DNA of 64,000 bases from a virus: positions 62,001-126,000 of IMG/VR virus record IMGVR_UViG_3300029267_004162; one strand, 5' to 3'. Positions 17,969 to 51,173 of the stretch are shown here, in pieces. Positions within the stretch are counted from its first letter, which is position 1. Every line of letters starts with the position of its first letter. A program made the position numbers and the translations under genes. The notes below the pieces were generated by a model, which ran no database searches, was not told where the DNA came from, and saw only the letters and a program-made list of their open reading frames with translations.

Positions 17969-18040
17969 AGCAATCTCTATCAAACATGTTCTTCTAGTCA
18001 GCGATAAGACCACCTAGTTTACTCACGGTTTTCTCCAATT

Positions 18041-18523: not shown

Positions 18524-18532
18524 GTTGATCTC

Positions 18533-19228
18533 CTAGTCGTAAGGGTCAAATGATACATCATAAGCGTAGAAGCACCAATCGACGTTTACCTTTTGGTATA
18601 GTAGGTTCTTAAAGGTAACCACAAAACCACAAACGTTGGGGTCGCAGTAAGGCACAACCTCTGATCTGGTTATGGAATCATCGTCGGTAATTATTACGAG
18701 GTCTGCCTCGGTGAAGTTTTGTGGGAACTCATATCCCTCAAACGCCACCCCATACACACCATTTTCTAATTGACCTACTACATAGCCATAACCATTGAAG
18801 GCGGTTCCGTCGTTATTGACACACCCTAGGGCTACAGCATAAAGGTCTTCGCCATCAGCGCCATCGGTACCATCAGCGCCATCTGTTCCATCAGCGCCAT
18901 CTGTTCCATCAGCGCCATCTGTTCCATCAGCGCCATCTGTTCCATCTGTTCCATCGGTACCATCTGTTCCATCAGCACCATCAGCACCATCAGCACCATC
19001 AGCACCATCAGCACCATCAGCACCAGTTTCACCCTGGGGTCCTGCTTCACCTTGAAGGCCGGGCAGGCCCTGAAGAAGAGGTGGTCTATTAGCCTCTTGG
19101 GCATTATCGATTACTTCACTAATGAATGCGGCAGTTCCGACTCCTAATAGGTCTACACCAGAGACGGGGCATCCCCCGCTAAGAACCGGAATAAGAACAA
19201 GTGCCAATACAATACAATAACGTTTCAT
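18533..19228 (-). CDS. Collagen-like lipoprotein
   Basis: The N-terminus is a lipoprotein signal (IVLALVLIPVLSGGC, Cys20). Residues 52-125 are uninterrupted Gly-X-Y triplets, first LQGLPGLQGEAGPQGETGA, then repeated Gly-Ala-Asp and Gly-Thr-Asp. The C-terminal 100 residues form a Cys-containing globular domain (VALGCVNNDG, VVPYCDPNVCGFVV, VDWCFYAYD), probably the trimerising head. Collagen triplets are common in phage fibres. Combining them with a lipid anchor is unusual and implies display on the host or virion membrane. An AAAGGA ribosome site precedes the ATG. Confidence 0.8.
   Translation of the reverse strand: MKRYCIVLALVLIPVLSGGCPVSGVDLLGVGTAAFISEVIDNAQEANRPPLLQGLPGLQGEAGPQGETGADGADGADGADGADGADGTDGTDGTDGTDGADGTDGADGTDGADGTDGADGTDGADGEDLYAVALGCVNNDGTAFNGYGYVVGQLENGVYGVAFEGYEFPQNFTEADLVIITDDDSITRSEVVPYCDPNVCGFVVTFKNLLYQKVNVDWCFYAYDVSFDPYD
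18852..19026 (-). repeat. Collagen-like triplet coding repeat
   Basis: This stretch encodes the Gly-X-Asp triplets. The DNA is a tandem array of 9- and 18-bp units (GGT-GCT-GAT, GGA-ACA-GAT) that differ mostly at third positions. Such arrays change length by slippage or recombination, so triplet number may vary between isolates while remaining in frame. Confidence 0.8.
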
Positions 19229-19239
19229 TGCGGATTCCT

Positions 19240-22200: not shown

Positions 22201-22263
22201 AACGGAAGTATCCACCCTCTGGACGATGATTGGCCCAGTTGCTTCAATTTTATGAAACTTCAT
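19240..22263 (-). CDS. Large baseplate/tail-fibre protein, 1007 aa
   Basis: Residues 1-60 hold a short fibre-type start (IIVQRVDTSVPPNSLP, LGRLLYDIGAGVFYVGGNSA). Residues 110-240 carry FLLARHDIGREAPLALVNG, YRQDLVFLEVWMEEV and YFQIRYRVRVIDGP, a pattern I associate with large phage baseplate or fibre proteins. Near residue 890 WTITHGFGTRVVTAKFY begins a copy of the repeat found twice in the protein at 18041. The gene is preceded by a structured leader that buries its ribosome site. It is likely the main baseplate wedge or fibre hub protein. Family name not certain. Confidence 0.55.
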   Translation of the reverse strand: MKFHKIEATGPIIVQRVDTSVPPNSLPTYSNPADLGRLLYDIGAGVFYVGGNSAWEPVSSASSLLASGENALGRLRGLAQALGKSGFTNLGSRRPFAGLTPAFPGVYCDLTVANQFLLARHDIGREAPLALVNGTLLSLIQDDTSGWEFPITLSAAPGTGYRQDLVFLEVWMEEVSTTSPTFFPYGNVDYVGGSVADPVDPAVVSTIGHQTNGQYFQIRYRVRVIDGPASADWLDPAGATPFGIDNAAVEARGATGAPVSGKIFQQMNELLGDTMLFRAGTGGAGDKTGSGLETVDGFVYAIPLCGIHRRNQDIWSHTNGNGSALNTADGTQGSLAGGGGQNGRPDAQFFDVVYPQDICDFRHTVLLNGLSTIMESMSQALLSGQNVVDWGEDEFGVASGAISGNGIRGTNMLTGGGIGTNNPFGAGHQVGVWLDEGNDASLTMFPDNCRNHWSDKANLMDMVSRFTQGLPGSENPANLLTYDPSSRAVTLNTTSLSGDPYVHTTAPIMHWVDASGNISSVVLSTPWSGLGTSSAACVVDVTDHAAHSGETCVIWCQILYPAGGGFRHVTEGLPLLAEDGSTAYPLIDGDLVNLDNFTFNGVATSSTPGGAPTHVILTSGSTVAGSYVGEWLQVIGSSTGSAGELRLIIAYDHTTQEVEVDSAFSGAINPGDTLTIHPMEPGQVYLDWRPGMRGFVRMLTRDRVGPVPAGGNLEVGSFVYQTTTGTRNGSLVTGVAPSAYLGVIQSRHLDQSDIIRVWYNMLPRQEQFQLLSTATADQLYFLSEGRFIATTDGTANPGANYLTPIGQVFPQFGGVKHIIGDAGRNAALDPSLYVRGDTAVMDLKSYPFVSDIPIAGVWIDKVTALAYPKGDLLEPKSDTGSQLVHNQTIPSTVWTITHGFGTRVVTAKFYEDVMGTWTDVFPNSVENIDESVTRVTWSTPQAGRATLTGLPPITSGLVALVNLVNDAGVLKLFTGVNRSGFGEITPAQAFIAPVLGRYLVPDEQGVY

Positions 22264-22323
22264 CTAGTTTCTCCTTCGTGGTAACTTGTCCCGATTCAAC
22301 ACCATGTTGAATCGTCGAAGGTA
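22264..22323 (-). promoter_or_regulatory. Structured leader that can pair with the SD of the 1007-aa gene
   Basis: Upstream CCTTCG (22316-22321) can pair with CGAAGG (22273-22278), which overlaps the AAGGAG ribosome site. Between them lies a 9-bp hairpin (GATTCAACA-TGG-TGTTGAATC) and then GGGACAAGTTACCA. The same arrangement, with near-identical GGGACAAAGTTACCACGAAGGAG flanks but a different inner hairpin, occurs before the gene at 23380. Conserved outer parts with a compensating inner stem point to selection for RNA structure. A translational control element is the likely role. Confidence 0.6.
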
Positions 22324-22330
22324 CATAGAC

Positions 22331-23371
22331 CTAATGGACTGGTTTTTGTTGCCCCTTCCGACGAATAGCTTGATTCAAGGCTTTGTTCTGTGTGACGAGT
22401 TTACGAATTTCAGTTTGTCCGCTTGCTAGACCTTTGAGTATTTCCAGCATCCTATCGATAGATTTCTCCAATCTCTTGATGTCACCCTTACCCCGGAGAA
22501 AATCAAAGAGCCCCGATTGAATAGGAGTGCTTTCTACTATTTCTGATACCGTGGCTAGTTCAGCGTAGATTCGATCCCACGGATCTGGATGGCATTCGGC
22601 CAGCAACAAACATTGTGAGGCCAATACTGATTTGATAGGCCCGGACTGATTACCAATTACTTGAACTGGGCAATTTAGGGCCATGGCTACGTTTTGTGGA
22701 GCTTGTTGTTCAAATGGGCTACTGTGCCACTTCCAATACAAAGACCCCGACCCAGGCTGACTGAGCGTGTCCCTGATCTTCTGGCCATTATCTCGATAAG
22801 GGATTTTCTGGGAGCCAAACCAGAATTCGGCGATTTGGGATCCAGTTTGGCCTCGCCAAACATCAAACCCTTTCTTCCTGATTTCCTCTAGATCGGGGGT
22901 TTGATTGAGGAGGTGATAGGTAGCTTGGCTTGGGGACTCCATCACCTCTAGTACAATGGCATCCCCAGGTAAACCGGGGAATTCGACCAACAAACGATTT
23001 GGGAACCCTTTGGTTTTCTGTCCCAGAAACCTGGACTCCCGAAGTGGTTTCGGACCGATCATCTGTCTAACTGATTCAATAATCGGGGTTGCCCAGTTTT
23101 TTGGATTGGAAGAGACCACACGGCGCTGCTCACCAGCCAAAGTGATAACAGCCGAAAGGCTTTTATTTTTTTGTAATAGAACAACCAAATCACTAGGACG
23201 AAAATGGACACCAACTTCAAAAGGTTTCTTGCCCACAGCCGCTTTGTATAGCAGAGTGAGTATCCCTTTGTTTTGTTTAGCAGAATAAATCTCGGCTTGG
23301 TTAGTGACCAGCCTTATTTCGCGGAGCAAGGGCTTGACTAAATTGGTTTTGATTCGCTTTAAGACAGTCAT
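22331..23371 (-). CDS. Hypothetical structural-region protein, 346 aa
   Basis: A protein of 346 residues beginning MTVLKRIKTNLVKPLLREIR, with AGGTC before the ATG. Residues 50-130 are beta-rich (VGVHFRPSDLVVLLQKN). The middle contains VWRGQTGSQIAEFWFGSQ. The last 60 residues form a coiled-coil helix (DIKRLEKSIDRMLEILKGL). I do not recognise it. Between the fibre gene and another structural gene, a baseplate or tail-tip part is likely. Confidence 0.5.
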   Translation of the reverse strand: MTVLKRIKTNLVKPLLREIRLVTNQAEIYSAKQNKGILTLLYKAAVGKKPFEVGVHFRPSDLVVLLQKNKSLSAVITLAGEQRRVVSSNPKNWATPIIESVRQMIGPKPLRESRFLGQKTKGFPNRLLVEFPGLPGDAIVLEVMESPSQATYHLLNQTPDLEEIRKKGFDVWRGQTGSQIAEFWFGSQKIPYRDNGQKIRDTLSQPGSGSLYWKWHSSPFEQQAPQNVAMALNCPVQVIGNQSGPIKSVLASQCLLLAECHPDPWDRIYAELATVSEIVESTPIQSGLFDFLRGKGDIKRLEKSIDRMLEILKGLASGQTEIRKLVTQNKALNQAIRRKGQQKPVH

Positions 23372-23379
23372 TATAAGAC

Positions 23380-23961
23380 CTACTTATTGGGGGTACCGAT
23401 TGGACCCTCGGTCCGTTCCCTTGCCCATTTTCCACTATAACCTTTACCCCAGGTATTAGTGCCTTGGCGGAAAGTACGTCCACCCATTGTACGAACTTGC
23501 ATCCGACGATCACGAGCAGACATACCCGCCATGCCTTTGCCAAAACGACCCTGAGGACTGGTATTCCATCCGCGTCCCAAGTAGCTACGTTCGAATGGCT
23601 GGTGGGGCATGGTAGCTACGAATCCAATATAATGTAATTGGTTATCGAATAGCCCCTTTTCAATACCCACTCGAAGCTTGTCATACAACAGAGCAATTTT
23701 GTTGAGAGGATTCATGCCCACTTCGATCACAATAGGATCTGAAGCGAACTGGACTGCTGCTCTTGCTGGCCACGGCATAGTTCCGTGCTCAAATCGCATA
23801 GCAGACATCCAGTGGTGTGGAATGTCCTTGAATTGCGCACTGAGAGTATACTGCGGCATCATCAGATAGAAGATACCCCAGTCATTATGGAATCCCTCAA
23901 ATATGGGATTCGGAATATGCTGTAGTTGCAAATCAGGACGAATAGTGAGGGTCTGTGACAT
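23380..23961 (-). CDS. Structural protein, 193 aa, leader-controlled
   Basis: The ATG at 23961 follows GAAGGAG at eight bases; a GTG 39 bases upstream lies before the ribosome site and is not used. The N-terminal 135 residues form a folded domain (WGIFYLMMPQYTLSAQFKDI, PIVIEVGMNPLNKIALLYDK). The last 60 are Gly/Arg-rich and basic (GKGMAGMSARDRRMQVRTMG). Shared leader structure with the 1007-residue gene suggests joint control of two virion parts. Specific role unknown. Confidence 0.55.
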   Translation of the reverse strand: MSQTLTIRPDLQLQHIPNPIFEGFHNDWGIFYLMMPQYTLSAQFKDIPHHWMSAMRFEHGTMPWPARAAVQFASDPIVIEVGMNPLNKIALLYDKLRVGIEKGLFDNQLHYIGFVATMPHQPFERSYLGRGWNTSPQGRFGKGMAGMSARDRRMQVRTMGGRTFRQGTNTWGKGYSGKWARERTEGPIGTPNK

Positions 23962-24014
23962 ACTAAAAACTCCTTCGTGGTAACTTTGTCCCGGCACCAC
24001 TTAGCCGTCGAAGG
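23962..24014 (-). promoter_or_regulatory. Structured leader, second copy
   Basis: CCTTCG (24009-24014) can pair with CGAAGG (23972-23977), covering the ribosome site of the next gene. Inside is a shorter hairpin (CGGC-TAAGTGGT-GCCG) followed by GGGACAAAGTTACCA. Compared with the leader at 22264, the flanks are almost identical while the inner stem differs in sequence yet remains a stem. This supports a shared RNA fold rather than a simple duplication. Confidence 0.6.
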
Positions 24015-24020
24015 AAAGGG

Positions 24021-25289
24021 TTATTGTGATTGTTGTTCTATATAAGTCTTAATTCTGTTTACAAATTGCTTATAATTGGTCTTCCCCTCCGTAAAGACAA
24101 ACACTCTATAGCCTGCTTTTTTCAATTTCGACATTTTAGTTTTAATAGCCTGTTGTCTTTTCTTATCCCCATAGAGGAAATCGGACTGGTGCGCGGTTCC
24201 ATCATACTCCACCACCAGGTTTAATTTGTGATTAATGGCATCTACGACTGCCCGAAGATTATCTATGCCAGGGGATTTCCTTCGTTCAAAAAGAACACCT
24301 GTATCACGTTGCAAAGTGCTGATAAATGTTTCTTCGGCTCCACTACTAATCTTGGTCAGACCTAATCGCCGAATAAACTCTGACCAATTCCCAAAGACAT
24401 GTTCTGCATGGGCAGCAGTGTACCGTTTACTATGTTTGTTAAAGAGGGGACGAGTCAAGAACTCTCTTCCCGTGTCTTGCTTGATCAGTTTTACGATCCG
24501 GCGACCTTCCAACATCAAAGCCATATCTGGCTTCACCAAGGAACGGTCCATAATTTTGTGTGTTTTGACATCTTGAGTTTTGGTGATATAAGTGGTGTGT
24601 TGTTCCGGTACAAAAACATCTTCCCACCCCTTAGTGGTTTTACACCGAAAAATGTACCCCAACCGAGCGTGGCCATCTAGTAGAACAACTGAGTGTTTCT
24701 CATCAGCTTTCTTAGTTTTACGAAGTTTATGGCCTTTTCGTAAACTTAACTTGGTTTGAATCCGGTCACGACCCGTATTGAGGCCATAAGCGATAGCCTC
24801 TGGTACCCACACCTTAATTTTGTCGTCTACGAATTGAACTTGAACCAAACCACGTTTGGGATTAAAATCAATTGTCTTTGCCCAGAACCATGCTAATCCA
24901 CCTGTCTTAGCAGCTACGGGATTGTCATTTTTATCGAGCCAGATTTTGACCTTCTTATTTAAGGATCGTTTAAGAGTCCACTTACGGGCCTTGTCTTGAA
25001 CTACTCGATAAACTGTCATAGGACGAATAGTAGAGTATTCACCACCAGGACTAGCCATTCCTACTGCCATCGCTTGGAGATCATGGCGAGTATAAAATCC
25101 TGGAGCAGGACCAAGCCCAATCTTCTCTAAAGCCTCGACAAACCGAGAGAATTGACTCCGCTTGGGAAACCTATGCACATATTCTGGCCAAGTAGTAGAG
25201 GTGGTGGGTCGACCTTTTCCCGGCCAATCCAAAAACTCTTCTAGGTGAATACTGGTACCTATGCGTTGTAGTAGCTGAGTGAAAGTCAT
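24021..25289 (-). CDS. Protein with C-terminal Vsr/DUF559-like nuclease domain
   Basis: A 422-residue protein whose ATG overlaps the upstream stop as TAATG. Residues 1-300 show repeated short units (ARKWTLKRSLNKKVKIWLD, DFNPKRGLVQVQFVDDKIKV) and a segment LLDGHARLGYIFRCKTTKG. From about 330 the protein reads GLTKISSGAEETFISTLQRD, LNLVVEYDGTAHQSDF and KMSKLKKAGYRVFVFTEG. This matches the E-x(n)-D-x(n)-E/Y core of very-short-patch-repair / DUF559 nucleases. In phages such enzymes are often mobile (homing) nucleases. Insertion in the tail operon fits that, but the TAATG coupling argues it is well integrated. Confidence 0.6.
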   Translation of the reverse strand: MTFTQLLQRIGTSIHLEEFLDWPGKGRPTTSTTWPEYVHRFPKRSQFSRFVEALEKIGLGPAPGFYTRHDLQAMAVGMASPGGEYSTIRPMTVYRVVQDKARKWTLKRSLNKKVKIWLDKNDNPVAAKTGGLAWFWAKTIDFNPKRGLVQVQFVDDKIKVWVPEAIAYGLNTGRDRIQTKLSLRKGHKLRKTKKADEKHSVVLLDGHARLGYIFRCKTTKGWEDVFVPEQHTTYITKTQDVKTHKIMDRSLVKPDMALMLEGRRIVKLIKQDTGREFLTRPLFNKHSKRYTAAHAEHVFGNWSEFIRRLGLTKISSGAEETFISTLQRDTGVLFERRKSPGIDNLRAVVDAINHKLNLVVEYDGTAHQSDFLYGDKKRQQAIKTKMSKLKKAGYRVFVFTEGKTNYKQFVNRIKTYIEQQSQ

Positions 25290-36437: not shown

Positions 36438-36767
36438 TTATGGTCTGGATTCATCAATTGCCTTTTGTTCTACCACTTGCGGACCTTTGTTGACTAGACG
36501 AATGCAACACTTTTTAAATTTCTTTCCGCTACCACAGGGACACGGGCGATTACGCAAACAATTCTTAACCTGTCTTATCTCGGTTACATCTTTATTCTGA
36601 CAAGCCTTGTCATATGCTTTCTGTAAACGAGGCTTTAAAGCCCCCTCGTCTTCTTCCCCTATAAACTCTCTCGTTACCCTTTTGGCTTCTGTTATATTTC
36701 CGGCGACTTCACTTTCAGAGGTGGTACCGCCCGGACTGGTTCTGTCAACGCTGGTTTCTTCATGCAT
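36438..36767 (-). CDS. SEC-C motif protein
   Basis: The C-terminal part has RPCPCGSGKKFKKCC (about residues 73-87 of the 109-residue form), the SEC-C zinc motif first seen in SecA. The first 50 residues are Ser/Thr/Glu-rich and likely disordered. The start overlaps the end of dpdA by about 75 bases in another frame, with AAAGGA before the ATG. SEC-C modules bind zinc and mediate protein contacts. Sitting just after DpdA it may be its partner. Confidence 0.75.
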   Translation of the reverse strand: MHEETSVDRTSPGGTTSESEVAGNITEAKRVTREFIGEEDEGALKPRLQKAYDKACQNKDVTEIRQVKNCLRNRPCPCGSGKKFKKCCIRLVNKGPQVVEQKAIDESRP

Positions 36768-38560
36768 TTTTGTTGTTCCTTTATTCGTTGTTTTTCTGCT
36801 TGTTTTAACCAAATTTTCTTGGCTTTTTGCTGCAGAGTCTTCTGTACCTTGGCATTCCCTTTTCCTCTACCGGTTCGTCCCCTCTTTTTCTCCACTTCTC
36901 TTTTAGAGAATTTGTGTTTAGTGGATAATTTACCAGTTGCAGTGGCCCGCAAATCCTGGATGTATGCCAAATAGCCCTTGTTATTTTTAACCTCTTTCCA
37001 CCAATTTTGGACTAACGGAGGAAACTGACCTAAAACTGCCGGGTCATCCATATTCATATAGAGAGGCATCAATTCTAAATTACTTCCCTCCCTAACCCCC
37101 GTCATCACTGGGTCTCCATCTTCATCCATTAAGTCCCGATCTTCACTAAACACGATATCAGGTTTTAAACTAGACTTCTTTCGAGTTTCAGCGTAATACA
37201 AACTACGAAATTCCTGAAAACCCGCATCCACCCCATATTCGATGGTGTGTTCTACATAAGCCACTAATTTGGCTGAACTAGTCCCGAAAGTCTTTTTGAC
37301 CCATTGATAATAATCTTCATAATCACTTTTTTTGGCCGTCTCATGAAGTAAGTTAGTGAAATTATTTAATGCCCAGATGTTATGAATAGCTAAATACGGA
37401 CCAATTTTAGTATTCTCGCTCCAGAAGGGGTCCATAAATCCAAGAGAGGAACAAACAGGACAAGCACATGTGGTTGGCAACCGACCCATGTGAGCAAAAT
37501 CATTCAGCGGAACTCCGTGGTTGTTTTTCTTGGTTTTTCCGTCTAGATGAAATTCAGTTCCAATCCGATCCGTTGAAATATATCCAGAGGGGTGTTGGAT
37601 GAGTATTTTACGGTGACCTACCCCTAGAAACTGACTGCTGGAATCGCAAGTAACCCGAATTTCCATTCGTTTAGCGAACCACGCCATAGCAGGCATAATC
37701 TTGATTCCCGATACTCCCAGGACATGGACCCATTTGGCCTCTCTTTCTGTTGCTACCAAAAGGGCTCCTCTTAGGGCGGAAGCAAAATCTTGAGAATCCC
37801 CAGAACCTGCACTAGCCCACCCAAAGAATTGTGGGCGATCAACCACATCAATCCATCGCCTTTGATCATCTGGGGTACAACTATGCACGATGTTAAAGAC
37901 CTTTAGATCAGGTCTCATGTTAGCAGTGTAACAATCAGCGAATTGCGATTGTAAATGAGAGAGGGTAGAAAAAATATCTTTTTGTCCAAAATCAGTTCCC
38001 TCTCGGGGAGGCGCGTCCAAAATCAAAGCATAGTCAGAGGTTTGGTTTTGCCATTCAATAACTGCCTTCGGATCAAGATAATCAACTGTTCTAACTCGAA
38101 GTTGATACCCTCCGGAATCCGTCATATGCACCAGGCCTGATGTCTTAGCCCAGTTGGTTCTCTGGTTTTTTCTAATTCCATATGCAGCAGAACTAAGAAT
38201 GATCCCGACTTGCCTGTTAATAGATCCTTCTTCACAGAAAGGGTCTAATTCATGAACTACGTCAAAATCCCGTGGGTCAAACGGAGCCATGGAAGGGTAA
38301 GAAACAGAACTCCGACCAAAATTGTTTAAGAACACGGTGCGATCGGGAAGATCGTATATTTGAATTTGGTTGTTTAGTTTATGATAACCCACTCCGAACC
38401 GAGAAACATGATCTATTTGTTTCTTAAACCGTACTCCAATAGACGGGTGAAAGGAAACTTCCGCTCCAGCCATGATCCAAGTAAGTCCACCCGGATCGGC
38501 GTCAGTGCCAAAAGTCCCTAGGATTTCGTCTCGTCGAGAAGTCAAAATTACTGCCTGCAT
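36692..38560 (-). CDS. dpdA: DpdA-like DNA guanine transglycosylase
   Basis: This 622-residue protein is in the tRNA-guanine transglycosylase superfamily. HMTDSGGYQ (145-153) carries the base-binding Asp148. Asp306 in VTCDSSSQF stands at the nucleophile position. A zinc site is formed by Cys365, Cys367, Cys370 and His393 (TTCACPVC ... AIHN). WVHVLGVSGIK matches the preceding strand. Phage and bacterial DpdA proteins swap guanine in DNA for a 7-deazaguanine, here presumably preQ1 or a derivative, since queC and queF lie upstream. Unlike tRNA enzymes it has a long C-terminal extension; residues 555-600 are very basic and may bind DNA. The clustering with queC and queF makes DNA the likely substrate. 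Confidence 0.8.
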   Translation of the reverse strand: MQAVILTSRRDEILGTFGTDADPGGLTWIMAGAEVSFHPSIGVRFKKQIDHVSRFGVGYHKLNNQIQIYDLPDRTVFLNNFGRSSVSYPSMAPFDPRDFDVVHELDPFCEEGSINRQVGIILSSAAYGIRKNQRTNWAKTSGLVHMTDSGGYQLRVRTVDYLDPKAVIEWQNQTSDYALILDAPPREGTDFGQKDIFSTLSHLQSQFADCYTANMRPDLKVFNIVHSCTPDDQRRWIDVVDRPQFFGWASAGSGDSQDFASALRGALLVATEREAKWVHVLGVSGIKIMPAMAWFAKRMEIRVTCDSSSQFLGVGHRKILIQHPSGYISTDRIGTEFHLDGKTKKNNHGVPLNDFAHMGRLPTTCACPVCSSLGFMDPFWSENTKIGPYLAIHNIWALNNFTNLLHETAKKSDYEDYYQWVKKTFGTSSAKLVAYVEHTIEYGVDAGFQEFRSLYYAETRKKSSLKPDIVFSEDRDLMDEDGDPVMTGVREGSNLELMPLYMNMDDPAVLGQFPPLVQNWWKEVKNNKGYLAYIQDLRATATGKLSTKHKFSKREVEKKRGRTGRGKGNAKVQKTLQQKAKKIWLKQAEKQRIKEQQKCMKKPALTEPVRAVPPLKVKSPEI

Positions 38561-38571: not shown

Positions 38572-39183
38572 TCAGCGACCAGAGTTAACCAGATCAATTC
38601 TAGATGATCCGGCCAGAGCACCGGTCTCCACAAGCGTAAATTCCCGAGCGGCCCTCGGTATACAAAGATTGTGTGCCGCATTACCATCGCGATCCAAGAC
38701 CGCGTGGCAATTGGGGCACGTCCATTTCCTCATACATAACGATAAAGAATCAACTTTAAACCCACAGTGATGACAAATCTTACTGGAGGGGTAAAACCGA
38801 TCCCGAACTACGAGAGATGATCCAGAGGCTTCGCATTTGTAAATTAATTGCCTGCGGAATTCACTCCAAGAGGCATCACTGATATGGCGGGCTAGAGCGT
38901 GGTTTTTGATCATGCCGGCCACGTTTAGGTCCTCGATGCAAATCTCTTGGAACATGTTGGACAACTGAGTAATCAGTTTGTGCAGGAAGTCTTGGCGGTG
39001 ATTGGTGATTCGCCAGTGATGACGAGCCAGTGTCGCTGCTGATTTCCTTCTGTTGTTAGAACCTTTTTGTTTACGGCTATGACGGCGAGACAACTTACGA
39101 AGTTTAGTCAAACCCTTGCCTAAAGCTTTGATGGGTTTCTTCTTGATGAACCTCCGAAAAGATGGGGTCGGAAAGTCTCTCGT
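38572..39183 (-). pseudogene. TnpB (IS605-type) C-terminal remnant
   Basis: The frame encodes the second half of a TnpB. It includes LRKLSRRHSRKQKGSNNRRK, RITNHRQDFLHKL, ICIEDLNVAGM (RuvC-II Glu), the zinc ribbon SSKICHHCG ... WTCPNCH and DRDGNAAHNL (RuvC-III). The N-terminal DNA/RNA-binding part and the RuvC-I Asp are absent, and an in-frame stop lies at 39184. No ATG opens it; a TTG at 39111 could. It abuts dpdA by 12 bases. It is most likely a dead transposon relic; a retained role for the C-terminal half cannot be excluded. Confidence 0.75.
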
Positions 39184-39222: not shown

Positions 39223-40485
39223 TTACGCAACCACGCCTTGGCACATTACTGATTTGATTGGATTCCAGTCAGCCCCAACATCCGTCAGGTAGTACACTCC
39301 CGCTCCTTCAATCTTTGTTGTACATTCATACAAATTTTTAACGGATTCAGGGATGTCCTGACCAAAAGCTGTTACAAGGCAAATATCTTCGGAGGCTTCG
39401 GATGCCAAGAAATGGCCGTTTTTTGTTATCCCGGCGGTATTGGAAATTGCCCATTTATTTGTATCTTGGGGTGGAGTGCTCACTAAATATTGTAAGGCTG
39501 GGATACCATTTTTGATCAAAACCGAAGCAAAATACTTCGAGCGAACCGGGAATTCCTTCATGCCCTCCCATAACCCAAAGAGCAATTCAGTATAACTAAA
39601 AGCGCAAGCCGCCACCTGGGCTTCAGTAGGATGTGGCATACGGGTAGTGTATTCTAAGAAATACATTTCCCCATCCGGAGTAACCATACAGTTGATATCG
39701 AAAAACCCTACGTGTCCTCTTATTTTGACCTCATGTGCTCGCATGAGATCGCCAATCGGAAAGGACAGTTGATCCAATTCCGTCCAGGTCATAAATTGAC
39801 CACAAGATCCTGATTCCCCAGTCATCTCAGTGGACCTGATCTGTTTAGGGTACCGTCGCTTGTATTCTTGAATCATGGTAAAAGGTTGTAGGAATTTGCC
39901 CTCTGCCCCCATGAACCCACCGAATCCAACTTCTTCACCTTCTATAAACTCTTGGTATACGGCACCCTGAAAATTAGTGGTCTTCAAAAACAAATCGCGT
40001 TTGTACAGCACCATTGTTCGGATAGAATTGCCCGGAAATCGTTGCTTAACCACATACTGATTTTCATCGAACTTAACCACTACTTTATCACCAGGAAACA
40101 TTTGTGCTTTATCTGGATCAGTAGTCGTCCGAGGAATTTTTATCCAGGGAGCCAACTTTTTGATAAACATAGCAGCAAACCCACGATCTAGTTCTAGTCT
40201 AGCACCAAGATCAACTGCTCGAATTTGCTGAGCTTCCCCCAGATTTGAAAAATGGTCTACGTAAAAAATCAAATCCGAAGGTCGGGAAATCTCTTTTACG
40301 CCCTCCCCCAACTGCCGCCAAGTCGAATACCACCGGATAGACATTCCAGGAGGTAAAACTTTTTCTTCGTCTGGGGGTTCGGGGGCCACTACATGAAAAA
40401 ACACCTCCACCGTGTCTTTAATCAAAGCAATAGCCAAAGCAAAGGGACACCAGTCCCCCACGAAATGAACTCTCCGAGTAGTCAT
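39223..40485 (-). CDS. PurD-like ATP-grasp ligase
   Basis: A 420-residue ATP-grasp enzyme. VVVKFD (135-140) has the ATP lysine. VYQEFIEGEEVGFGGFM (176-192) matches the hinge and acidic strand of the PurD group. FFDINCMVTPDGEMYFLEYT (261-280) with Asp263 and Glu278 forms the metal site, although Thr replaces the usual Asn of E-x-N-x-R. PurD joins a carboxylate (glycine) to an amine. The start overlaps the end of the first queC by four bases (ATGA), so they are coupled. As QueF makes a primary amine on the base, amide ligation of an amino acid to preQ1 is a natural proposal. Substrate unproven. Confidence 0.75.
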   Translation of the reverse strand: MTTRRVHFVGDWCPFALAIALIKDTVEVFFHVVAPEPPDEEKVLPPGMSIRWYSTWRQLGEGVKEISRPSDLIFYVDHFSNLGEAQQIRAVDLGARLELDRGFAAMFIKKLAPWIKIPRTTTDPDKAQMFPGDKVVVKFDENQYVVKQRFPGNSIRTMVLYKRDLFLKTTNFQGAVYQEFIEGEEVGFGGFMGAEGKFLQPFTMIQEYKRRYPKQIRSTEMTGESGSCGQFMTWTELDQLSFPIGDLMRAHEVKIRGHVGFFDINCMVTPDGEMYFLEYTTRMPHPTEAQVAACAFSYTELLFGLWEGMKEFPVRSKYFASVLIKNGIPALQYLVSTPPQDTNKWAISNTAGITKNGHFLASEASEDICLVTAFGQDIPESVKNLYECTTKIEGAGVYYLTDVGADWNPIKSVMCQGVVA

Positions 40486-41216
40486 ACCAATTCCTTTGGT
40501 TTAACATCATACTCAGTTGAATCCTGGCCTTCAGCAGTCATAAAAGCCCAGTGCCTACCTCGACAAGCAAAACAACCACCACAATGATCTGATTTGCTAT
40601 TTTGAAAACAAGACACCGTCGTTTCCAATGGAGCCCCCAATGCTCTACCCAAACGAACAACTGCGGCTTTGTCTAGCCCAGCTAACGCATCGATCATTCC
40701 AAAATGGACTGCTGTTCCAGGGTGATTTTCGTGATAAGGTGTAAAATCGTTGTACAAAGAGCCGATTTCTCCACGGAATTCACTAGAATCCATAGTATCA
40801 AACACACCCCCAAGAAATTCATTCGTAAAATCTTTAGTGGCCGGGTCATTCATTCCAGAACCCCCAGTATCAGCATCCATCTCGCCAGTGTATACTTTTT
40901 CCACACCTATCTTTTCAGCCATCGCCAAAGCAAGGGAGTATTGAAATAACTTGAACCCAGGAATGTAATTACTTCCTGGAATTTGCAACTTGTCCAAAAC
41001 ATCCCGCATATCCACACGAGTCAATTTAAGACCAAGAAGACATGCAATTCTATTCTGCGATTCAACGACCTTTTCTTGTCCCCATAAATTCAGCGATAAC
41101 AATAGGGGGTAGGCCCCGGCTTTCTGGAGCATAGCAGCTACCACAGTGGAATCCAAACCGCCGCTAAAAAGTACCAGAGATTTGTAAACTTGCGTATGTG
41201 TATGCGTGTGGGTCAA
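40482..41216 (-). CDS. queC: Divergent QueC paralogue
   Basis: The start is TTG, after GGAGG at seven bases and overlapping the upstream stop. SGGLDST (18-24) is the PP-loop, and Cys203, Cys212, Cys215 and Cys218 form the QueC zinc site (SCFQNSKSDHCGGCFAC). Length (244) fits. But the VPxRN segment of true QueC is replaced by YIPGFKLFQYSLALAMAEK. The family normally converts carboxy-deazaguanine to preQ0. With a canonical QueC also present, this copy may use another substrate. The N-terminus is a Thr-His repeat from a hexamer-type simple repeat. Confidence 0.75.
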   Translation of the reverse strand: MTHTHTHTQVYKSLVLFSGGLDSTVVAAMLQKAGAYPLLLSLNLWGQEKVVESQNRIACLLGLKLTRVDMRDVLDKLQIPGSNYIPGFKLFQYSLALAMAEKIGVEKVYTGEMDADTGGSGMNDPATKDFTNEFLGGVFDTMDSSEFRGEIGSLYNDFTPYHENHPGTAVHFGMIDALAGLDKAAVVRLGRALGAPLETTVSCFQNSKSDHCGGCFACRGRHWAFMTAEGQDSTEYDVKPKELV

Positions 41217-41932
41217 ACGAGAGCCTCCGGAGTATCTTTACTCTTCTTAACCATAGCGATGAAATGCAAACAGCATTCTATTTGATTACGGGGAAACCCC
41301 AAGTGTTCAACACAATACCGAATTACTTGATCGGAATCTAAAGATTTAGTGTGCGTCCCAGCGCGACCCATGATGGTAAGTTTACCTCCACGAGTACCAG
41401 CCACCAACTGCTCCATGGATTCCTTCACAAGTCTCCTGGTGAAAATAAACCGGGAAGTGATGTGTTCTTGGGTTAGACAATAGGCCAGTTGTTTTCCATA
41501 CACTTCAGCATCAAAAGAATCGGCGTGAAATTTGTACAGGGTTTGGGGTGTAGTCGCAACACCCTGACGAATAACAGCACCATTGCATAGGGAAGCCCTC
41601 CCCGGAATAGAATAATCTTGTTCGACGCCCCAAAGATCAAAAGCAAGGAACATAAAAGAGGGGTCGATAATCCAGCGGTGGTCCACCAGCAAAATTGAGT
41701 GGGTCAATTGCCCCTTCACTTCCACAACTACTAGTTGGCCTTGTCCCAACAGTTGTTGTGCCTGTCGGGCTAAGTGAAAGCAGTTTCCTGATTTGGCCCC
41801 GTAGGCCAAATCTTTTTGAGGATAATCCGGGGTGCCTCTTCCCTTGGCAAGAGCCGTGATCTTAGAGATGGTCTCAAATAACCAGGTTTGAGGATTCAGT
41901 TTTTCTACGGCCTGTTGCAAAAAAGAAGTCAT
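41213..41932 (-). CDS. Transglutaminase/arylamine-acetyltransferase-like protein
   Basis: A Cys-His-Asp triad is visible in order: Cys51 in SGNCFHLARQ, His78 in THSILLVDHR, Asp90 in WIIDPSF. This is the arrangement of transglutaminase-like and arylamine N-acetyltransferase enzymes. The rest (239 residues) is alpha/beta with a helical C-terminus. GAGGTGATACC precedes the ATG. It lies between queF and the divergent queC in a tightly coupled run. It could transfer an acyl group to, or hydrolyse an amide on, the deazaguanine side chain. Substrate not known. Confidence 0.6.
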   Translation of the reverse strand: MTSFLQQAVEKLNPQTWLFETISKITALAKGRGTPDYPQKDLAYGAKSGNCFHLARQAQQLLGQGQLVVVEVKGQLTHSILLVDHRWIIDPSFMFLAFDLWGVEQDYSIPGRASLCNGAVIRQGVATTPQTLYKFHADSFDAEVYGKQLAYCLTQEHITSRFIFTRRLVKESMEQLVAGTRGGKLTIMGRAGTHTKSLDSDQVIRYCVEHLGFPRNQIECCLHFIAMVKKSKDTPEALV

Positions 41933-41936
41933 GGTA

Positions 41937-42398
41937 TCACCTCAAATGAGGTTCGAGGGTGGGGAAAGTACCAAATCTATCTGATGCCCATTGTGCCCAC
42001 TCCTCACTGTGTCTCTGTGCGAATGGTTGGATGGCTATGCCCCCACGAGAATTAAAACACCCAATTACTTCAACATACTTGGGGGTCAACAAACTCATCA
42101 AATCTTCGACTATGACGTTGACAACTGCTTCGTGGAAAGCTCCATGATTTCTAAAACTGCCCAGGTAAAGCTTCAGAGCTTTGCTCTCGACTAAACGCTC
42201 CTGAGGAACATAATTGATGTAGATCGTACCCCAATCAGGTTGACTGGTGACGGGACAAATACTGGAGAATTCTGAACAGATCAAGCGAATCCAAAATACC
42301 GACTCCCGTGATGGGCTGGGTACATGTTCTAGAAGTTCAGGATTGTACTGTTGAGTCTGGGAACCAAATCCGGAATTACCTGAGCCTAAATGATTCAT
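41937..42398 (-). CDS. queF: QueF, preQ0 nitrile reductase
   Basis: A 153-residue protein of the short (YkvM-type) QueF class. Catalytic Cys48 in FSSICPVTSQPD and Asp55 are present, ESKALKLYL (71-79) is the QueF signature and FHE (88-90) completes the substrate site. QueF reduces the nitrile of preQ0 to the aminomethyl of preQ1 using two NADPH. The phage thus can make preQ1, not only preQ0. It overlaps the upstream gene by 23 bases and ends four bases before the triad protein. Confidence 0.9.
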   Translation of the reverse strand: MNHLGSGNSGFGSQTQQYNPELLEHVPSPSRESVFWIRLICSEFSSICPVTSQPDWGTIYINYVPQERLVESKALKLYLGSFRNHGAFHEAVVNVIVEDLMSLLTPKYVEVIGCFNSRGGIAIQPFAQRHSEEWAQWASDRFGTFPTLEPHLR

Positions 42399-42699
42399 TA
42401 TCTTCTGCCAACCTTTCCACTAAACTAGCGACTCGTTTGCAAATCCATTGAATATCATGATCAGTTAACTGCGATGGATCAGCTCGACCCAGTAAAAGCA
42501 GTTTTTGAAGTCGCTGCCATATAGCTTTATGAACAGCGGACTCAACGTGTTCTGAAAGCAGACGGATACTACCGGCTTCCCCCGGAACCATGTCATTACA
42601 GGTGAATAGGCAGTCCTTGTACAGACACCCGTAGTATTCACCACGTGGATTCCATGCGAAATGATCCCGGTTACAAATTGGACAACTAACAGCGGTCAT
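42376..42699 (-). CDS. Small zinc-finger protein, 107 aa
   Basis: The ATG at 42699 with AGGA five bases upstream is preferred to a TTG 18 bases before. VSCPICNRDHFAWNPRGEYY followed by GCLYKDCLFTC gives two Cys pairs, a zinc-ribbon-like unit. The remainder is helical (HKAIWQRLQKLLLLGR). It overlaps the start of queF. It may be a regulatory or adaptor protein for the modification genes. Confidence 0.5.
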   Translation of the reverse strand: MTAVSCPICNRDHFAWNPRGEYYGCLYKDCLFTCNDMVPGEAGSIRLLSEHVESAVHKAIWQRLQKLLLLGRADPSQLTDHDIQWICKRVASLVERLAEDNESFRLR

Positions 42700-42750
42700 T
42701 TCAGTCCTGATTGACAAGAGGGATTGTTGTGATACATCAACTTCCTTTTA

Positions 42751-43539
42751 CTAACGATTAGGACACAAAATCAGACCACTGCGAATCTCCAGTTCTTCCA
42801 GCGTAACAGTGTAGTTCTGAAAGTTGGCCTTGCGAGGTGTATCCTGGGGCAAAAGATAAGCTGTCGGAGTTTCCCCTCTGATCATCACGATTTTCCAAAA
42901 AGCGGAGGGAACACAGTGGGGTTCATCTGCTCCAGGTAATTGAGGCATGCTATCGTCTTCGAATAGTGGGCCGGTGAGAATCCAGGTTTCCCCATGTTCC
43001 CATGTCAGTTCTCGCACGTAGATTTCCAATCCTAGCCAAGTTCCCTGATTGAGACCAGGATACTGAGGTGCGATGTTGCTCAGATAGTTTACTTGAGAAG
43101 CATCTTTGGACCCCCGGAAAGAAGCCAATGGAGCTAGGTGACCCCGATCAAAATCACTGGCTCCCTTGTAGTCGGCTGGTTCCAAAGTTTCAGCCGGATC
43201 CAATAGAGGATCACTTCTCCACACCCGAGCTAAATCCAGTGTTCCTCTTGTTTTACTGGGGGTTAAGTGATAAGCCACCCAGTCTGCTAGCTTGGTTTCG
43301 ATGTTAGCACTAAGGGCGTAAGATTCACGCACAACAATGACATTGGTTTCGGGGGTGCCGATTGGACAACCAAAAAGGAAATGTTCACATCGAATCTGAC
43401 CGGTGGGGAAGGGGATGGGAGCAACAGCCATTAAAGGCTTGGGGGTAGAAACGGTGAGCGTCAAGAATGCCCGGATGAGGATGATGAGACAAATCGAGCA
43501 CACAATCCACGTACAAGTCCGACGGGGTTTAGTCGACAT
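42751..43539 (-). CDS. Membrane-anchored DNA/RNA non-specific nuclease (NUC1)
   Basis: GGGAG precedes the ATG at 43539. Residues 10-30 (TWIVCSICLIILIRAFLTL) form a signal anchor. DFDRGHLAP (129-137) is the DRGH signature with His134 as general base, and NYLSNIAPQYPGLNQGTW (151-168) carries the metal Asn. This is the NUC1/EndA family, which cuts DNA and RNA without sequence preference. Its export signal places it in the periplasm or at the membrane. Possible roles are attacking incoming competitor DNA or releasing nucleotides. Presence in a DNA-modification cluster invites the idea that modified DNA resists it. Confidence 0.85.
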   Translation of the reverse strand: MSTKPRRTCTWIVCSICLIILIRAFLTLTVSTPKPLMAVAPIPFPTGQIRCEHFLFGCPIGTPETNVIVVRESYALSANIETKLADWVAYHLTPSKTRGTLDLARVWRSDPLLDPAETLEPADYKGASDFDRGHLAPLASFRGSKDASQVNYLSNIAPQYPGLNQGTWLGLEIYVRELTWEHGETWILTGPLFEDDSMPQLPGADEPHCVPSAFWKIVMIRGETPTAYLLPQDTPRKANFQNYTVTLEELEIRSGLILCPNR

Positions 43540-44047
43540 GAAGTTTCTCCCAACCGGTTTCTGGATAGTACACGCGATTGCCATCAAAAATGTAAATTAG
43601 CATATAGTCGTCCCCCAAGTTGCTATTGGTGAAACATCTGTGTCCGCCTTCATAAATCAACAGGTAATTCCCACCGCCAATCCACATCCAGCTATCAGTC
43701 ACGAAATTCCACAGATACAGTTCTTTGCTAAACCACGTGTAATAGCTGTATTTCTTGCATTTTTTATAACCCGGCGGTATTACATATACTGAATCATCCC
43801 TGGTCACTTCTAAAACTGGAGTCGTTTCTATCTTTTGACACTTCCTCATTTTCAGACACTGTTTACAGGTAACGCGCTGCCAATGGGGGCTGGTACGACT
43901 CTCACTTGCCCAAAACTCCAACCCACATACCGCAAAATCATACGAGCCATAATTAACTACCCTCCCGCCTTGATATCCTCGGTCTCTACGTTTCCGCTTA
44001 TGTATAATCTTTCGCTTCTCTAAAGGCTGCGGGCTACTTACCGTCAT
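43529..44047 (-). CDS. Hypothetical aromatic-rich protein, 172 aa
   Basis: The ATG at 44047 follows AGGAAATGAG directly after the upstream stop. A basic N-terminus (PLEKRKIIHKRKRRDRGYQG) leads into VVNYGSYDFAVCGLEFWASE, then VTCKQCLKMRKCQK with a possible zinc ribbon, and a Tyr/Trp-rich C-terminal half (YTWFSKELYLWNFVTDSWMW). It overlaps the nuclease start by 11 bases. Immunity to the nuclease or a structural role are guesses. Confidence 0.45.
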   Translation of the reverse strand: MTVSSPQPLEKRKIIHKRKRRDRGYQGGRVVNYGSYDFAVCGLEFWASESRTSPHWQRVTCKQCLKMRKCQKIETTPVLEVTRDDSVYVIPPGYKKCKKYSYYTWFSKELYLWNFVTDSWMWIGGGNYLLIYEGGHRCFTNSNLGDDYMLIYIFDGNRVYYPETGWEKLHVD

Positions 44048-44048
44048 C

Positions 44049-44717
44049 TCATTTCCTAACCGGGCCATAGACGGTAGGATCGGTTACCTCGGCTAACCGA
44101 AATGCCTCTCGTCGTTCCACACAGGTTCCACATTTACCGCAATGAGTGACTTGTCCTTTGTAGCATGACCATGTCTCCCCGAAGGGCACGTGTAATTCAT
44201 GACCGAGACGGCATATCCTGGTTTTATCATACCGAAGAAAGGGAGTCCAAATAGGTACCGGATAATAATGACACACATCAGCGATCTGAGACAAGGCTAT
44301 CACAAAGGCTGGTCTACAGTCTGGGTAGATGGAGTGATCCCCAGCGTGAGCAGCATAAGCCACGGCGTCATATTTCTCATTGATGCAACACCCAATAGCG
44401 ATCGATAACATGATCATATTACGATTGGGAACTACCGTGGTCTGCATATTCTTGTCAGCATAATGCCCCTCCGGCACCACCGTTGCTGAATCCATCAAAG
44501 CGTTATCGCCCAAGAGTTGACCCACGGAACGTAAGTCTAAGATATGATGGGGACACTTATACTCGATTGCCAAAGCGGCTGCGGCTTCGATCTCCCGTCG
44601 TCCGTGTTTCTGACCGTAATTGAAGGTCAAACACTGACAAGTATGGCCTTGTGCCAATAAACTGGCCAGAAGTACAGTAGAATCCATCCCACCGGATAGG
44701 GATACAATCACTTTCAC
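44049..44717 (-). CDS. queC: QueC, canonical preQ0 synthase
   Basis: A GTG start overlaps the upstream stop as GTGA, with GGAGG seven bases before. The 222-residue length is that of QueC. SGGMDST (8-14) is the PP-loop, VPNRN (96-100) and GDHSIYPDCRPAF match the family core, and Cys185, Cys193, Cys196 and Cys199 bind zinc. It converts 7-carboxy-7-deazaguanine and ammonia to preQ0 with ATP. The genes for earlier steps (FolE, QueD, QueE) are not in the window, so the precursor may come from the host or from elsewhere in the phage. Confidence 0.9.
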   Translation of the reverse strand: MKVIVSLSGGMDSTVLLASLLAQGHTCQCLTFNYGQKHGRREIEAAAALAIEYKCPHHILDLRSVGQLLGDNALMDSATVVPEGHYADKNMQTTVVPNRNMIMLSIAIGCCINEKYDAVAYAAHAGDHSIYPDCRPAFVIALSQIADVCHYYPVPIWTPFLRYDKTRICRLGHELHVPFGETWSCYKGQVTHCGKCGTCVERREAFRLAEVTDPTVYGPVRK

Positions 44718-45646
44718 TGGGGTGCCTCCGCCAACATCGGAATTTCCGAGGACACGGCTCGAAGAATATCGCGTTTGTATTCCCCTGCCACATCGGGAGT
44801 CCCCAGGGACAAAGATTTGCACTGCTTTTCATAAGCGGTTTGCATCAGAAACAGGATCATCAACGTTATGGGATCAAACTTCTTAAATCCAGGTAGGGAC
44901 CATACTTCTACCAGACGTAGTTGGTCCGTCTCCTGGAAATATAAGATCAACCCCAGTGGTTTGCCCTCGAATTCGAGTACCAGAGCCTCTGCGTGAATTC
45001 CGGCCAGAATCAAATAGTCCCAACGTGATTTGTTGGTCGTCGCCCATTTGGTAAGAGGGGTCTCTTTTAGAGGCGAAGTAAGATGTTGCAATTCCCCAAA
45101 CCAAAAATCTGGGGTCTTTGGCTGACTTACCACCTTGGGGCTAAACTTTCGCCAGGTCGTTCGAGTATAACGACAATCAGTACCTTTCAAGTGGCTCTCA
45201 AAATCAGAAGCGGCAAGAGGTAAAATCAATTCTGTCTGAGTCGGAATCCCCTCCCCATACAGCAGCTTGATCAGAGATTCAAAATCGGGGCCACTTAAAG
45301 CCAGGAGGTTTCTAGTCAAGCCGAGGTTGTTCAAAGGAAAGACTAGCAGTGGAGTGTAGCCATCATCCTTCATCTCTGATACACGAACAATGCCACTCTG
45401 CTCCCGTTTAGCAATTAGATGAAGGATACCGGGTGGAACATCCAAATTAATAGGGTTTAGGCCCTGAATTCCCCTCATTAAAACATCAGACCATTCTTGG
45501 TGGTGTTCAACCAAAAAACACCGGCCATCACGTTCTACTCGTGTACCTAGCTGGGGACGAGGGGGTTTATCCCGTTTAACAACCAATCGTTTAGATCGTG
45601 TTTTCTTCTTAACGGCTGGTTTTGATGGTAATGACGACGACGTCAT
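44714..45646 (-). CDS. GNAT/FemAB-like acyltransferase candidate
   Basis: The first 35 residues are basic (KPAVKKKTRSKRLVVKRDKP). Two related alpha/beta halves follow. The second half (AEALVLEFEGKPLGLILYFQ, RLVEVWSLPGFKKFDPITLM, CKSLSLGTPDVAGEYKRDIL) has the strand-bulge-helix order of GNAT and FemAB/BioF2-type acyltransferases. GTGA overlap couples it to the canonical queC. An acyl or aminoacyl transfer onto the deazaguanine amine is possible. The fold assignment is moderate, the substrate unknown. Confidence 0.5.
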   Translation of the reverse strand: MTSSSLPSKPAVKKKTRSKRLVVKRDKPPRPQLGTRVERDGRCFLVEHHQEWSDVLMRGIQGLNPINLDVPPGILHLIAKREQSGIVRVSEMKDDGYTPLLVFPLNNLGLTRNLLALSGPDFESLIKLLYGEGIPTQTELILPLAASDFESHLKGTDCRYTRTTWRKFSPKVVSQPKTPDFWFGELQHLTSPLKETPLTKWATTNKSRWDYLILAGIHAEALVLEFEGKPLGLILYFQETDQLRLVEVWSLPGFKKFDPITLMILFLMQTAYEKQCKSLSLGTPDVAGEYKRDILRAVSSEIPMLAEAPQ

Positions 45647-49322: not shown

Positions 49323-49652
49323 TTAGGATGCAATTTTCTCTAAGGTCGCATCCATAGAACCCTGACATCCCAAAACACGATCATCAGCCCCATAGGAAGT
49401 GATTTGATCTTTCTTCCACTCGGCTTTTTCAAAGTGACTACGATAGACAGCCGCTTTACCGGTCTCATCCACTAGCTTCGCTAGTTGAAAAGCTTCTTCC
49501 CTACTGTGACCACAGGTTTCAGCCAGCATCCGAACCACATACTCATACGTGTGGTAGTCATCGTTCCACAGGATAACGGTCCATTCGGGAGATAACTGGG
49601 TTTCAACAACGGGAACGGGAGCGAGAGTGGGGGTGGCGGCTGATGAAGTCAT
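49323..49652 (-). CDS. clpS: ClpS-like N-degron adaptor
   Basis: A 109-residue protein with a disordered 23-residue start and the full ClpS core: WTVILWNDDYHTYEYVVRML (24-43) with Asn30-Asp31-Asp32, then EEAFQLAKLVDETGKAAVYR. Asp62 stands where the degron-binding His of E. coli ClpS lies. The end, GCQGSMDATLEKIAS, and the HTYEYV core resemble planctomycete versions as I recall them. ClpS delivers N-degron proteins to ClpAP. A phage copy could steer host proteolysis. It overlaps dnaX as ATGA. Confidence 0.8.
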   Translation of the reverse strand: MTSSAATPTLAPVPVVETQLSPEWTVILWNDDYHTYEYVVRMLAETCGHSREEAFQLAKLVDETGKAAVYRSHFEKAEWKKDQITSYGADDRVLGCQGSMDATLEKIAS

Positions 49653-50762: not shown

Positions 50763-51173
50763 TTATGTTTGAAGCTCGGGGAAGATACAGAATCCTGCTT
50801 TGAGAAGGTCATTCTGTGTAGCAGAGACCCCCGACTCTATAATTGCGTGATCTAAATGCACGTGGATTTCATGTTGTGAATCTTGCCAAGTTACGGAAGA
50901 TATTTCACAAAACACAACTACCCCAAGCGATTCAAAGGCGATTAACGTTTCTTCGTTTGGAAATCCAGGTAACGTCCCTTCTTTAGCCAATAGTATTCCA
51001 CCGGATTCAACGAGATACAAACATTTTACCACTGGTTGCTGCTTTTCAATTTGTCGGGTTTGCACCATAGGTGTCTTTTGAATTAGCGGCAAGAATGTCA
51101 AAAACAGTATGACGATGATGCCGACTACGATTAGAACTTCAACAAAGGACATTCCCTTTACCATTACTTTCAT
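50763..51173 (-). CDS. Type IV pilin/pseudopilin-like protein
   Basis: The N-terminus has the class III signal: short basic leader KVMVKG, cleavage after Gly7, then MSFVEVLIVVGIIVILFLTF with Glu at mature +5 and a long hydrophobic helix. Host prepilin peptidase could process it. The body of about 100 residues is beta-rich with two Cys (KCLYLVESGG, GVVVFCEISSV), shorter than usual major pilins. The ATG overlaps the sigma-like stop. Phage-borne pilins are unusual; it may interfere with host pili or secretion used as a receptor. Confidence 0.7.
   Translation of the reverse strand: MKVMVKGMSFVEVLIVVGIIVILFLTFLPLIQKTPMVQTRQIEKQQPVVKCLYLVESGGILLAKEGTLPGFPNEETLIAFESLGVVVFCEISSVTWQDSQHEIHVHLDHAIIESGVSATQNDLLKAGFCIFPELQT

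Follow-up and report, generated by a model that had tools for sequence, protein, structure and literature searches.

We analysed a 64,000-nucleotide stretch (the window) covering positions 62001-126000 of the 262,650-base virus record IMGVR_UViG_3300029267_004162, which represents a giant bacterial virus. A run of minus-strand genes, from 45646 down to 39223, joins genes for making the base 7-aminomethyl-7-deazaguanine (preQ1) to a PurD-like ATP-grasp enzyme and putative acyl-transfer proteins. We consider it very likely that the virus encodes a 7-deazaguanine DNA-modification pathway that leads as far as preQ1. Of the single explanations, amide hypermodification of preQ1 by the ATP-grasp enzyme accounts best for the gene set, and we hold it with moderate confidence. 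The genes and their coupling are established, as are the families of QueC, QueF, the ATP-grasp enzyme and a nearby transglycosylase (Table 1).

In the pathway that we propose, the FolE, QueD, QueE and QueC proteins of the phage would make 7-cyano-7-deazaguanine (preQ0) from GTP, QueF would reduce it to preQ1 with its free aminomethyl group, and a DpdA-like transglycosylase would insert the deazaguanine into phage DNA in exchange for guanine. The ATP-grasp enzyme would activate a carboxylate as an acyl phosphate, most simply that of an amino acid (compare PurD with glycine), and transfer the acyl group to the amine of preQ1, either as the free base or already in DNA. The resulting amide-linked side chain would be trimmed or extended by a transglutaminase-like protein with a Cys-His-Asp triad and a GNAT/FemAB-like protein. 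Here we infer DNA as the target, preQ1 as the acceptor of the ATP-grasp enzyme, which acyl group is attached, and what the triad protein, the GNAT-like protein and a second QueC-family protein, QueC2, do.

The original prediction, that QueC and QueF together give preQ1, is well supported: both score above their cut-offs, and FolE, QueD and QueE are found in the same record, so the full route from GTP through preQ0 to preQ1 is encoded. QueF falls within the QueF-II family by score and by ESKALKLY, CPVTSQPDWG and GAFHE, which we take to correspond to the family's catalytic Cys/Asp/His-Glu residues and its ESK(S/A)LK(L/Y)Y motif. QueC most likely starts at the GTG at 44717, overlapping the stop of the GNAT-like gene, rather than at 44822. 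It is a canonical QueC, with SGGMDS, YGQKHGRRE, VPNRN, YPDC and C-x8-CxxCxxC matching the published definitions (SGGxDS, YxQxHxxE, VPxRN, YPDC and C-x8-CxxCxxC; PMC13329287), apart from a one-residue shift of the glutamate in YxQxHxxE.

A DpdA enzyme that can place a deazaguanine in DNA had been named alongside QueC and QueF. A DpdA-like enzyme is indeed encoded, supported by homologs and invariant residues, but its gene (36692-38560) lies just downstream, outside 39223-45646, with a TnpB remnant, the rest of that gene missing, standing between it and the cluster. Its profile matches to tRNA-guanine transglycosylase (TGT) are weak: 13 bits for Pfam and 18 bits for the best NCBIfam model, archaeal TgtA, whose cut-off is 350. 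Using tblastn, we found homologs in 18 of 50,697 phage records, mostly jumbo-phage proteins of 23-26% identity (E to 1e-25), carried by Lauda and eight relatives, NCTB, PhiXhv-15 and relatives, GR7B, GR11A and, more weakly (18%), Motura. Across six aligned phage sequences, the window protein and five jumbo-phage homologs, D148-SGG-Q153 (DSGG[YF]Q), D306 and the CxCxxC...H site (C365/C367/C370/H393) are invariant. A scan of IMG/VR with a single-protein pattern returned no close relatives of the transglycosylase, and the six-sequence alignment was too divergent for this use; a two-sequence alignment recovered seven more relatives. Three of these have queD, queE, queC or folE near the transglycosylase and one other has folE, the queD, queE and folE assignments being made by eye from the sequences. 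In Motura, queC, queE, folE and an asparagine-synthetase-like gene surround it. The protein thus has the TGT-superfamily Asp residues, the zinc site and the genomic link to preQ0 genes that mark DpdA, and this combination supports a DpdA-like function with predicted insertion of a deazaguanine into DNA.

As tRNA TGTs belong to the same superfamily and archaeal TgtA gives the best, if weak, NCBIfam match, the phage might instead make a queuosine-like hypermodified tRNA base. We consider this very unlikely: the enzyme is far from any tRNA TGT, the window holds no tRNA genes, and the relatives are found in phages and viral contigs, where several adjoin DNA replication genes or share their genome with enzymes for glycosyl and aminoacyl tailoring.

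The run reads, in order, GNAT/FemAB-like protein, QueC, a 179-amino-acid protein, an endonuclease, a 113-amino-acid protein, QueF, transglutaminase-like protein, QueC2 and PurD-like ATP-grasp enzyme. Read from the DNA, stop and start codons overlap by four bases at 44717 (GTGA), 41216 (TTGA) and 40485 (ATGA), and the transglutaminase-like gene follows a gap of 4 bases. On this pattern, the genes for QueF, the transglutaminase-like protein, QueC2 and the ATP-grasp enzyme look translationally coupled. The tightly coupled run that had been described is therefore real; QueC2 (40482-41216) is an addition to its gene list.

The call of a PurD-like ATP-grasp ligase likewise stood up to profile searches. 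TIGR00877 matched with 37.7 bits (E 1e-9) over positions 98-422 of 425, nearly its full length, and the PurD structure 2yw2 in the PDB matched with E 3e-5. A housekeeping PurD was rejected on score, 37.7 bits against a cut-off of 288, and we therefore class the protein as a PurD-like ATP-grasp enzyme and not as PurD. On reading its residues, the VVVK lysine, EFIEGEE and LEYTTR preserve the ATP-site Lys, Glu and Glu/Arg, whereas EYTTRMPHPTE stands where PurD has EFNxRxGDPE. PurD, the phosphoribosylamine-glycine ligase, links glycine through its carboxylate to an amine, and it is from this chemistry that we propose an amide on preQ1.

One of the two main rival accounts is that the pathway ends with preQ1 (dPreQ1) or preQ0 (dPreQ0) in DNA, and that the ATP-grasp, transglutaminase-like and GNAT-like proteins and QueC2 serve other ends, such as protein or metabolite modification. 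There is precedent in Streptococcus phage Dp-1, which has QueF and DpdA and carries dPreQ1 (PMC6884629), and at least one gene within the run, encoding a nuclease, is apparently unrelated to the others. However, the tight coupling is specific to QueF, the transglutaminase-like protein, QueC2 and the ATP-grasp enzyme, and a PurD-like ATP-grasp, a second QueC and a FemAB-like protein recur in other phages with this transglycosylase. We regard an endpoint at dPreQ1 as unlikely, and this recurrence strengthens the case for an amide.

A PurD-like profile search of the transglycosylase-bearing records uncovered the ATP-grasp gene of Pseudomonas putida phage Lauda. At 156.8-170.1 kb, Lauda encodes a 694-amino-acid ATP-grasp enzyme and a lysine 2,3-aminomutase (KamA), together with two QueC-like proteins, two methyltransferase-like proteins and several proteins whose motifs look FemAB/GNAT-like; this gene set suggests a beta-lysine-bearing deazaguanine. 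Vibrio phages GR7B and GR11A have ligA, an ArcS-like DUF5591 protein (28.2 bits, cut-off 26), a canonical and a divergent QueC, two FemAB/GNAT-like proteins, an ATP-grasp enzyme and a lysine 2,3-aminomutase, followed by topoisomerase II. The ATP-grasp enzymes of Lauda, GR7B and GR11A share 33-47% identity. The Lauda-type ATP-grasp occurs in 11 phage records, each of which also carries the transglycosylase, itself present in 18 of 50,697 records; the 11 go back to two or three lineages and do not count as separate events. Xanthomonas phage PhiXhv-15 combines Gat-QueC, ArcS-like and FemAB-like proteins with a Leu/Phe-tRNA-protein transferase (Aat, 106 bits) and a glycosyltransferase. Neither QueF nor a transglutaminase-like gene was recognised in the cluster regions read of Lauda and GR7B/GR11A, the Vibrio phages having the ArcS-like lysine transferase rather than QueF, and aligning the Lauda/GR7B ATP-grasp profile against IMG/VR yielded nothing. 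Among the 363 open reading frames (ORFs) of the window's virus, the window ATP-grasp ranks top for that profile, weakly (E 0.035). The ArcS-like and two FemAB-like profiles found no convincing match there, and its sole radical-SAM match is QueE, so no lysine 2,3-aminomutase is seen. In aggregate, enzyme classes recur with this transglycosylase, and the likeness seen is at class level.

Within the 145000-185000 segment of Lauda (PP496443.1), positions 13255-25138 hold KamA, the ATP-grasp gene, the two QueC-like genes, the two methyltransferase-like genes and the FemAB/GNAT-like genes. Stand-alone ArcS-like (DUF5591) lysine-transferase candidates occur in segments of GR7B (7503-8510, with a PC-x3-KPY motif), PhiXhv-15 (12732-13607) and a further phage (11034-11900). 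Glycosyltransferase/GlcNAc-type deacetylase genes stand near Gat-QueC in PhiXhv-15 (segment 6807-16764) and near the transglycosylase and folE in another segment (6408-8688); sugar genes beside deazaguanine genes suggest a sugar-decorated deazaguanine.

QueC2 keeps the P-loop (SGGLDS) and the zinc site of QueC, and its Tyr/His, VPxRN and YPDC motifs are gone. It is not a canonical QueC (53 bits against 150.3) and not a QatC (39.7 bits against 280; 244 against ~400 amino acids), scoring better with QueC than with QatC models and far under both cut-offs. Its PDB matches include QatC and Cap9 structures, GR7B_117 aligns with it at hhalign E 4.6e-6, and a single-protein pattern found no close relatives in IMG/VR. 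In Escherichia coli QueC, mutating residues that QueC2 lacks abolishes preQ0 synthesis (PMC13329287). QueC2 may be a second ATP-dependent carboxylate-activating enzyme with a changed substrate.

Such an activity would also fit the other main rival, an amide of opposite polarity. Here 7-carboxy-7-deazaguanine would be adenylated on its carboxylate by QueC2 and coupled to a group that bears an amine and that the ATP-grasp enzyme then extends. QatC, like QueC2, retains the P-loop and zinc site and has lost the canonical substrate motifs; QatC and Cap9 are shown or proposed to link carboxy-deazaguanine to an amine, that of protein N-termini; and a second QueC-like gene is also part of the Lauda and GR7B clusters. 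Yet this polarity leaves unexplained the coupled QueF, which turns a nitrile into an amine, and the QueC tree fails to place QueC2, making it rather improbable. QueC2 and the TGT-like enzyme might alternatively act like Cap9 and Cap10 of the type IV cyclic-oligonucleotide-based antiphage signalling system (CBASS), conjugating deazaguanine to protein in an immune role, as type IV CBASS pairs QueC-like with TGT-like partners and QueC2 matches QatC. This is most unlikely. The Asp residues and zinc ligands expected of an enzyme acting on nucleic acid are conserved in the transglycosylase, and QueC2 fits neither Cap9 (~185 amino acids with conserved QueC motifs) nor QatC (~400 amino acids). Among the ten cluster proteins scanned, there was no match to cGAS/DncV-like nucleotidyltransferase (CD-NTase), QatA or QatD models, nor, beyond QatC, to any other qat model, and complete preQ1 synthesis would be superfluous.

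Two proteins of the run are candidate tailoring enzymes. In the 239-amino-acid protein, GNCFHLA...LTHSILLV..WIIDPSF orders Cys, His and Asp as in transglutaminase-like and arylamine N-acetyltransferase (NAT) enzymes. The residue arrangement on which it had been called an acyltransferase or transglutaminase-like protein is thus present, and no profile in the library searches matched the protein. The pattern, picked after being seen, is found in 1 of 363 ORFs; the shuffle estimate for it is post hoc and of little weight. For the GNAT/FemAB-like protein, the call is based on a sub-threshold profile score (14.8 bits, cut-off 22) and a C-terminal LSLGTPDVAGEYKRDI motif recognised by eye. That motif is related, by eye and with no profile link, to those of proteins in the analogous clusters, and a sub-threshold Acetyltransf_6 match near the C-terminus is common to this protein, GR7B_116 and a PhiXhv-15 protein. 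On its own, the GNAT/FemAB assignment is weak.

Several results weigh against amide hypermodification. The window ATP-grasp has no close relative in phages, plasmids, IMG/VR or genomes, the transglutaminase-like protein none in phages, plasmids or IMG/VR, and the GNAT-like protein none in phages, the sole collection searched for it; the exact gene set has therefore been seen once, with the IMG/VR and genome scans being pattern-based and of limited reach. No PurD-like match appeared in the seven IMG/VR relatives of the transglycosylase, most of which are fragments, and the profile also misses the homologous GR7B ATP-grasp. The QueC tree, with its long branches, leaves the orthology of QueC2 to GR7B_117 unplaced, the nuclease looks foreign to the pathway, and single-sequence AlphaFold models were unusable (predicted local distance difference test 36 for the transglutaminase-like and 38 for the GNAT-like protein). 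The link between the window ATP-grasp and the Lauda/GR7B family is itself weak (hhalign E 0.002, probability 14%). The co-occurrence of ATP-grasp and triad proteins with dpdA elsewhere, on which the original prediction staked its case, consequently holds for the ATP-grasp class, in 11 of 11 Lauda-type records, and not for the exact proteins.

Table 1. Features of the deazaguanine locus and of the preQ0 genes found elsewhere in the record (window positions unless marked)
Feature	Position	Strand	Evidence
TGT-superfamily transglycosylase, DpdA-like, 622 amino acids, Lys/Arg-rich C-terminal tail	36692..38560	-	Weak profile matches, conserved residues, homologs
TnpB C-terminal remnant, IS200/IS605	38572..39111	-	NF038281 174 bits, profile positions 207-355 only
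PurD-like ATP-grasp ligase, 420 amino acids, predicted amide ligase	39223..40485	-	TIGR00877 37.7 bits; ATG overlaps preceding stop
QueC2, 244 amino acids	40482..41216	-	Pfam PF06508 77 bits
Transglutaminase-like/NAT-like protein, Cys-His-Asp triad, 239 amino acids	41213..41932	-	Motif GNCFHLARQAQQLLG...LTHSILLVDHRWIIDP; no family match
QueF-II, NADPH-dependent preQ0 reductase making preQ1	41937..42398	-	NCBIfam TIGR03139 139 bits, cut-off 86.9
113-amino-acid protein with Cys pairs	42376..42717	-	ORF; no family above cut-off
DNA/RNA non-specific endonuclease, N-terminal hydrophobic segment	42751..43587	-	PF01223 137 bits
179-amino-acid protein	43529..44068	-	ORF; no family match
Canonical QueC (preQ0 synthase)	44049..44717	-	TIGR00364 183 bits, cut-off 150.3; GTG start overlaps preceding stop
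GNAT/FemAB-like (BioF2-like) acyl/aminoacyl transferase candidate	44714..45646	-	Acetyltransf_6 14.8 bits, cut-off 22
FolE	169669-170283 (record)		116 bits
QueE	192320-193108 (record)		Top matches all QueE families, each below cut-off
QueD	210941-211393 (record)		97 bits

The endonuclease of the run probably lies outside the pathway. No Rfam RNA, the preQ1 riboswitch included, reached gathering scores in 30000-52000, and sigma-70-like promoters were rarer than in shuffled sequence. Beyond the run, the window encodes a ClpS adaptor (49323-49652; 71.5 bits, cut-off 23) and a phage protein with a type IV pilin-like N-terminal segment (50763-51173; GMSFVEVLIVVGIIVILF). Outside the window, a PurZ-like protein on the minus strand (record 164987-166048) scores 214 bits with PurZ (cut-off 300) and at most 118 with PurA models, and has Ser-Thr in place of the PurA Asp-Glu; 2-aminoadenine may be a further product of the phage. 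The phage DNA polymerase is PolA-like, with a weak DpoZ match (79 bits, cut-off 500), and no clear DatZ was recognised in the virus. At record 215357-218284 lies an apparent fusion of a family-4 uracil-DNA glycosylase and DNA polymerase I.

The deazaguanine modifications known from phage DNA are mostly small. Were the ATP-grasp enzyme to attach amino acids or other acids at the amine of preQ1, guanine in phage DNA could bear bulky, possibly charged side chains, with consequences for restriction, CRISPR and sequencing; such ligases could also serve to label preQ1-bearing nucleic acids. We tentatively put forward, as a possibility somewhat short of an even chance, a diverse and undescribed class of hypermodified DNA. 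In it, large phages of several lineages would replace guanine with a 7-deazaguanine that carries amino-acid- or peptide-like side chains through an amide. For the Pseudomonas and Vibrio phages the side chain might be beta-lysine, for the window's virus an acyl group on preQ1, and the builders would be PurD-like ATP-grasp enzymes, FemAB/GNAT-like transferases and repurposed QueC paralogs. These findings add candidate new functions for the QueC family, and since phages with analogous clusters are in culture, on P. putida KT2440 and Vibrio, the predicted base is open to laboratory test. In open-licence full-text literature, we found no description of an ATP-grasp or aminomutase deazaguanine system.

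Compared with known systems, the ATP-grasp enzyme resembles PurD in its near full-length alignment and ATP-site residues and differs in its score, its altered EFNxRxGDPE motif and the lack of a purine operon by the window gene. QueC2 shares the QueC fold, P-loop and zinc site with QatC and Cap9, and altered substrate motifs with QatC, and departs from both in size, motifs and gene context. Phage DpdA systems have the same FolE-QueD-QueE-QueC-QueF set and a TGT-superfamily transglycosylase, to which the window adds a PurD-like ATP-grasp enzyme, QueC2, a Cys-His-Asp protein and a GNAT-like protein, its transglycosylase belonging to a divergent jumbo-phage clade. The clusters of Lauda and GR7B/GR11A, which are without functional annotation, share with the window a homologous transglycosylase in the genome, two QueC-like proteins, a PurD-like ATP-grasp and FemAB/GNAT-like proteins. 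Unlike the window, they have lysine 2,3-aminomutase (and, in the Vibrio phages, an ArcS-like lysine transferase), an ATP-grasp only distantly similar and a transglycosylase away from the cluster. Formyl-dPreQ1 (fdPreQ1) and methyl-dPreQ1 (mdPreQ1), reportedly described in phage DNA by Cui and colleagues in 2023, also place a group on the preQ1 amine, the formyl as an amide; they are made by a formyltransferase or a methyltransferase, in contrast to the ATP-grasp ligase of the window. The statement that no such phage base had been described was therefore slightly too strong, fdPreQ1 being an acylated preQ1 in phage DNA. CmoX/CmoY offers a parallel in the use of ATP to ligate an amino acid to a phage DNA base by an amide, CmoY coupling glycine to 5-carboxymethylcytosine (PMC12783734); there the handle is a carboxylate on cytosine and the ligase asparagine-synthetase-like and AMP-forming, whereas in the window the predicted handle is an amine on deazaguanine and the ligase an ATP-grasp enzyme.

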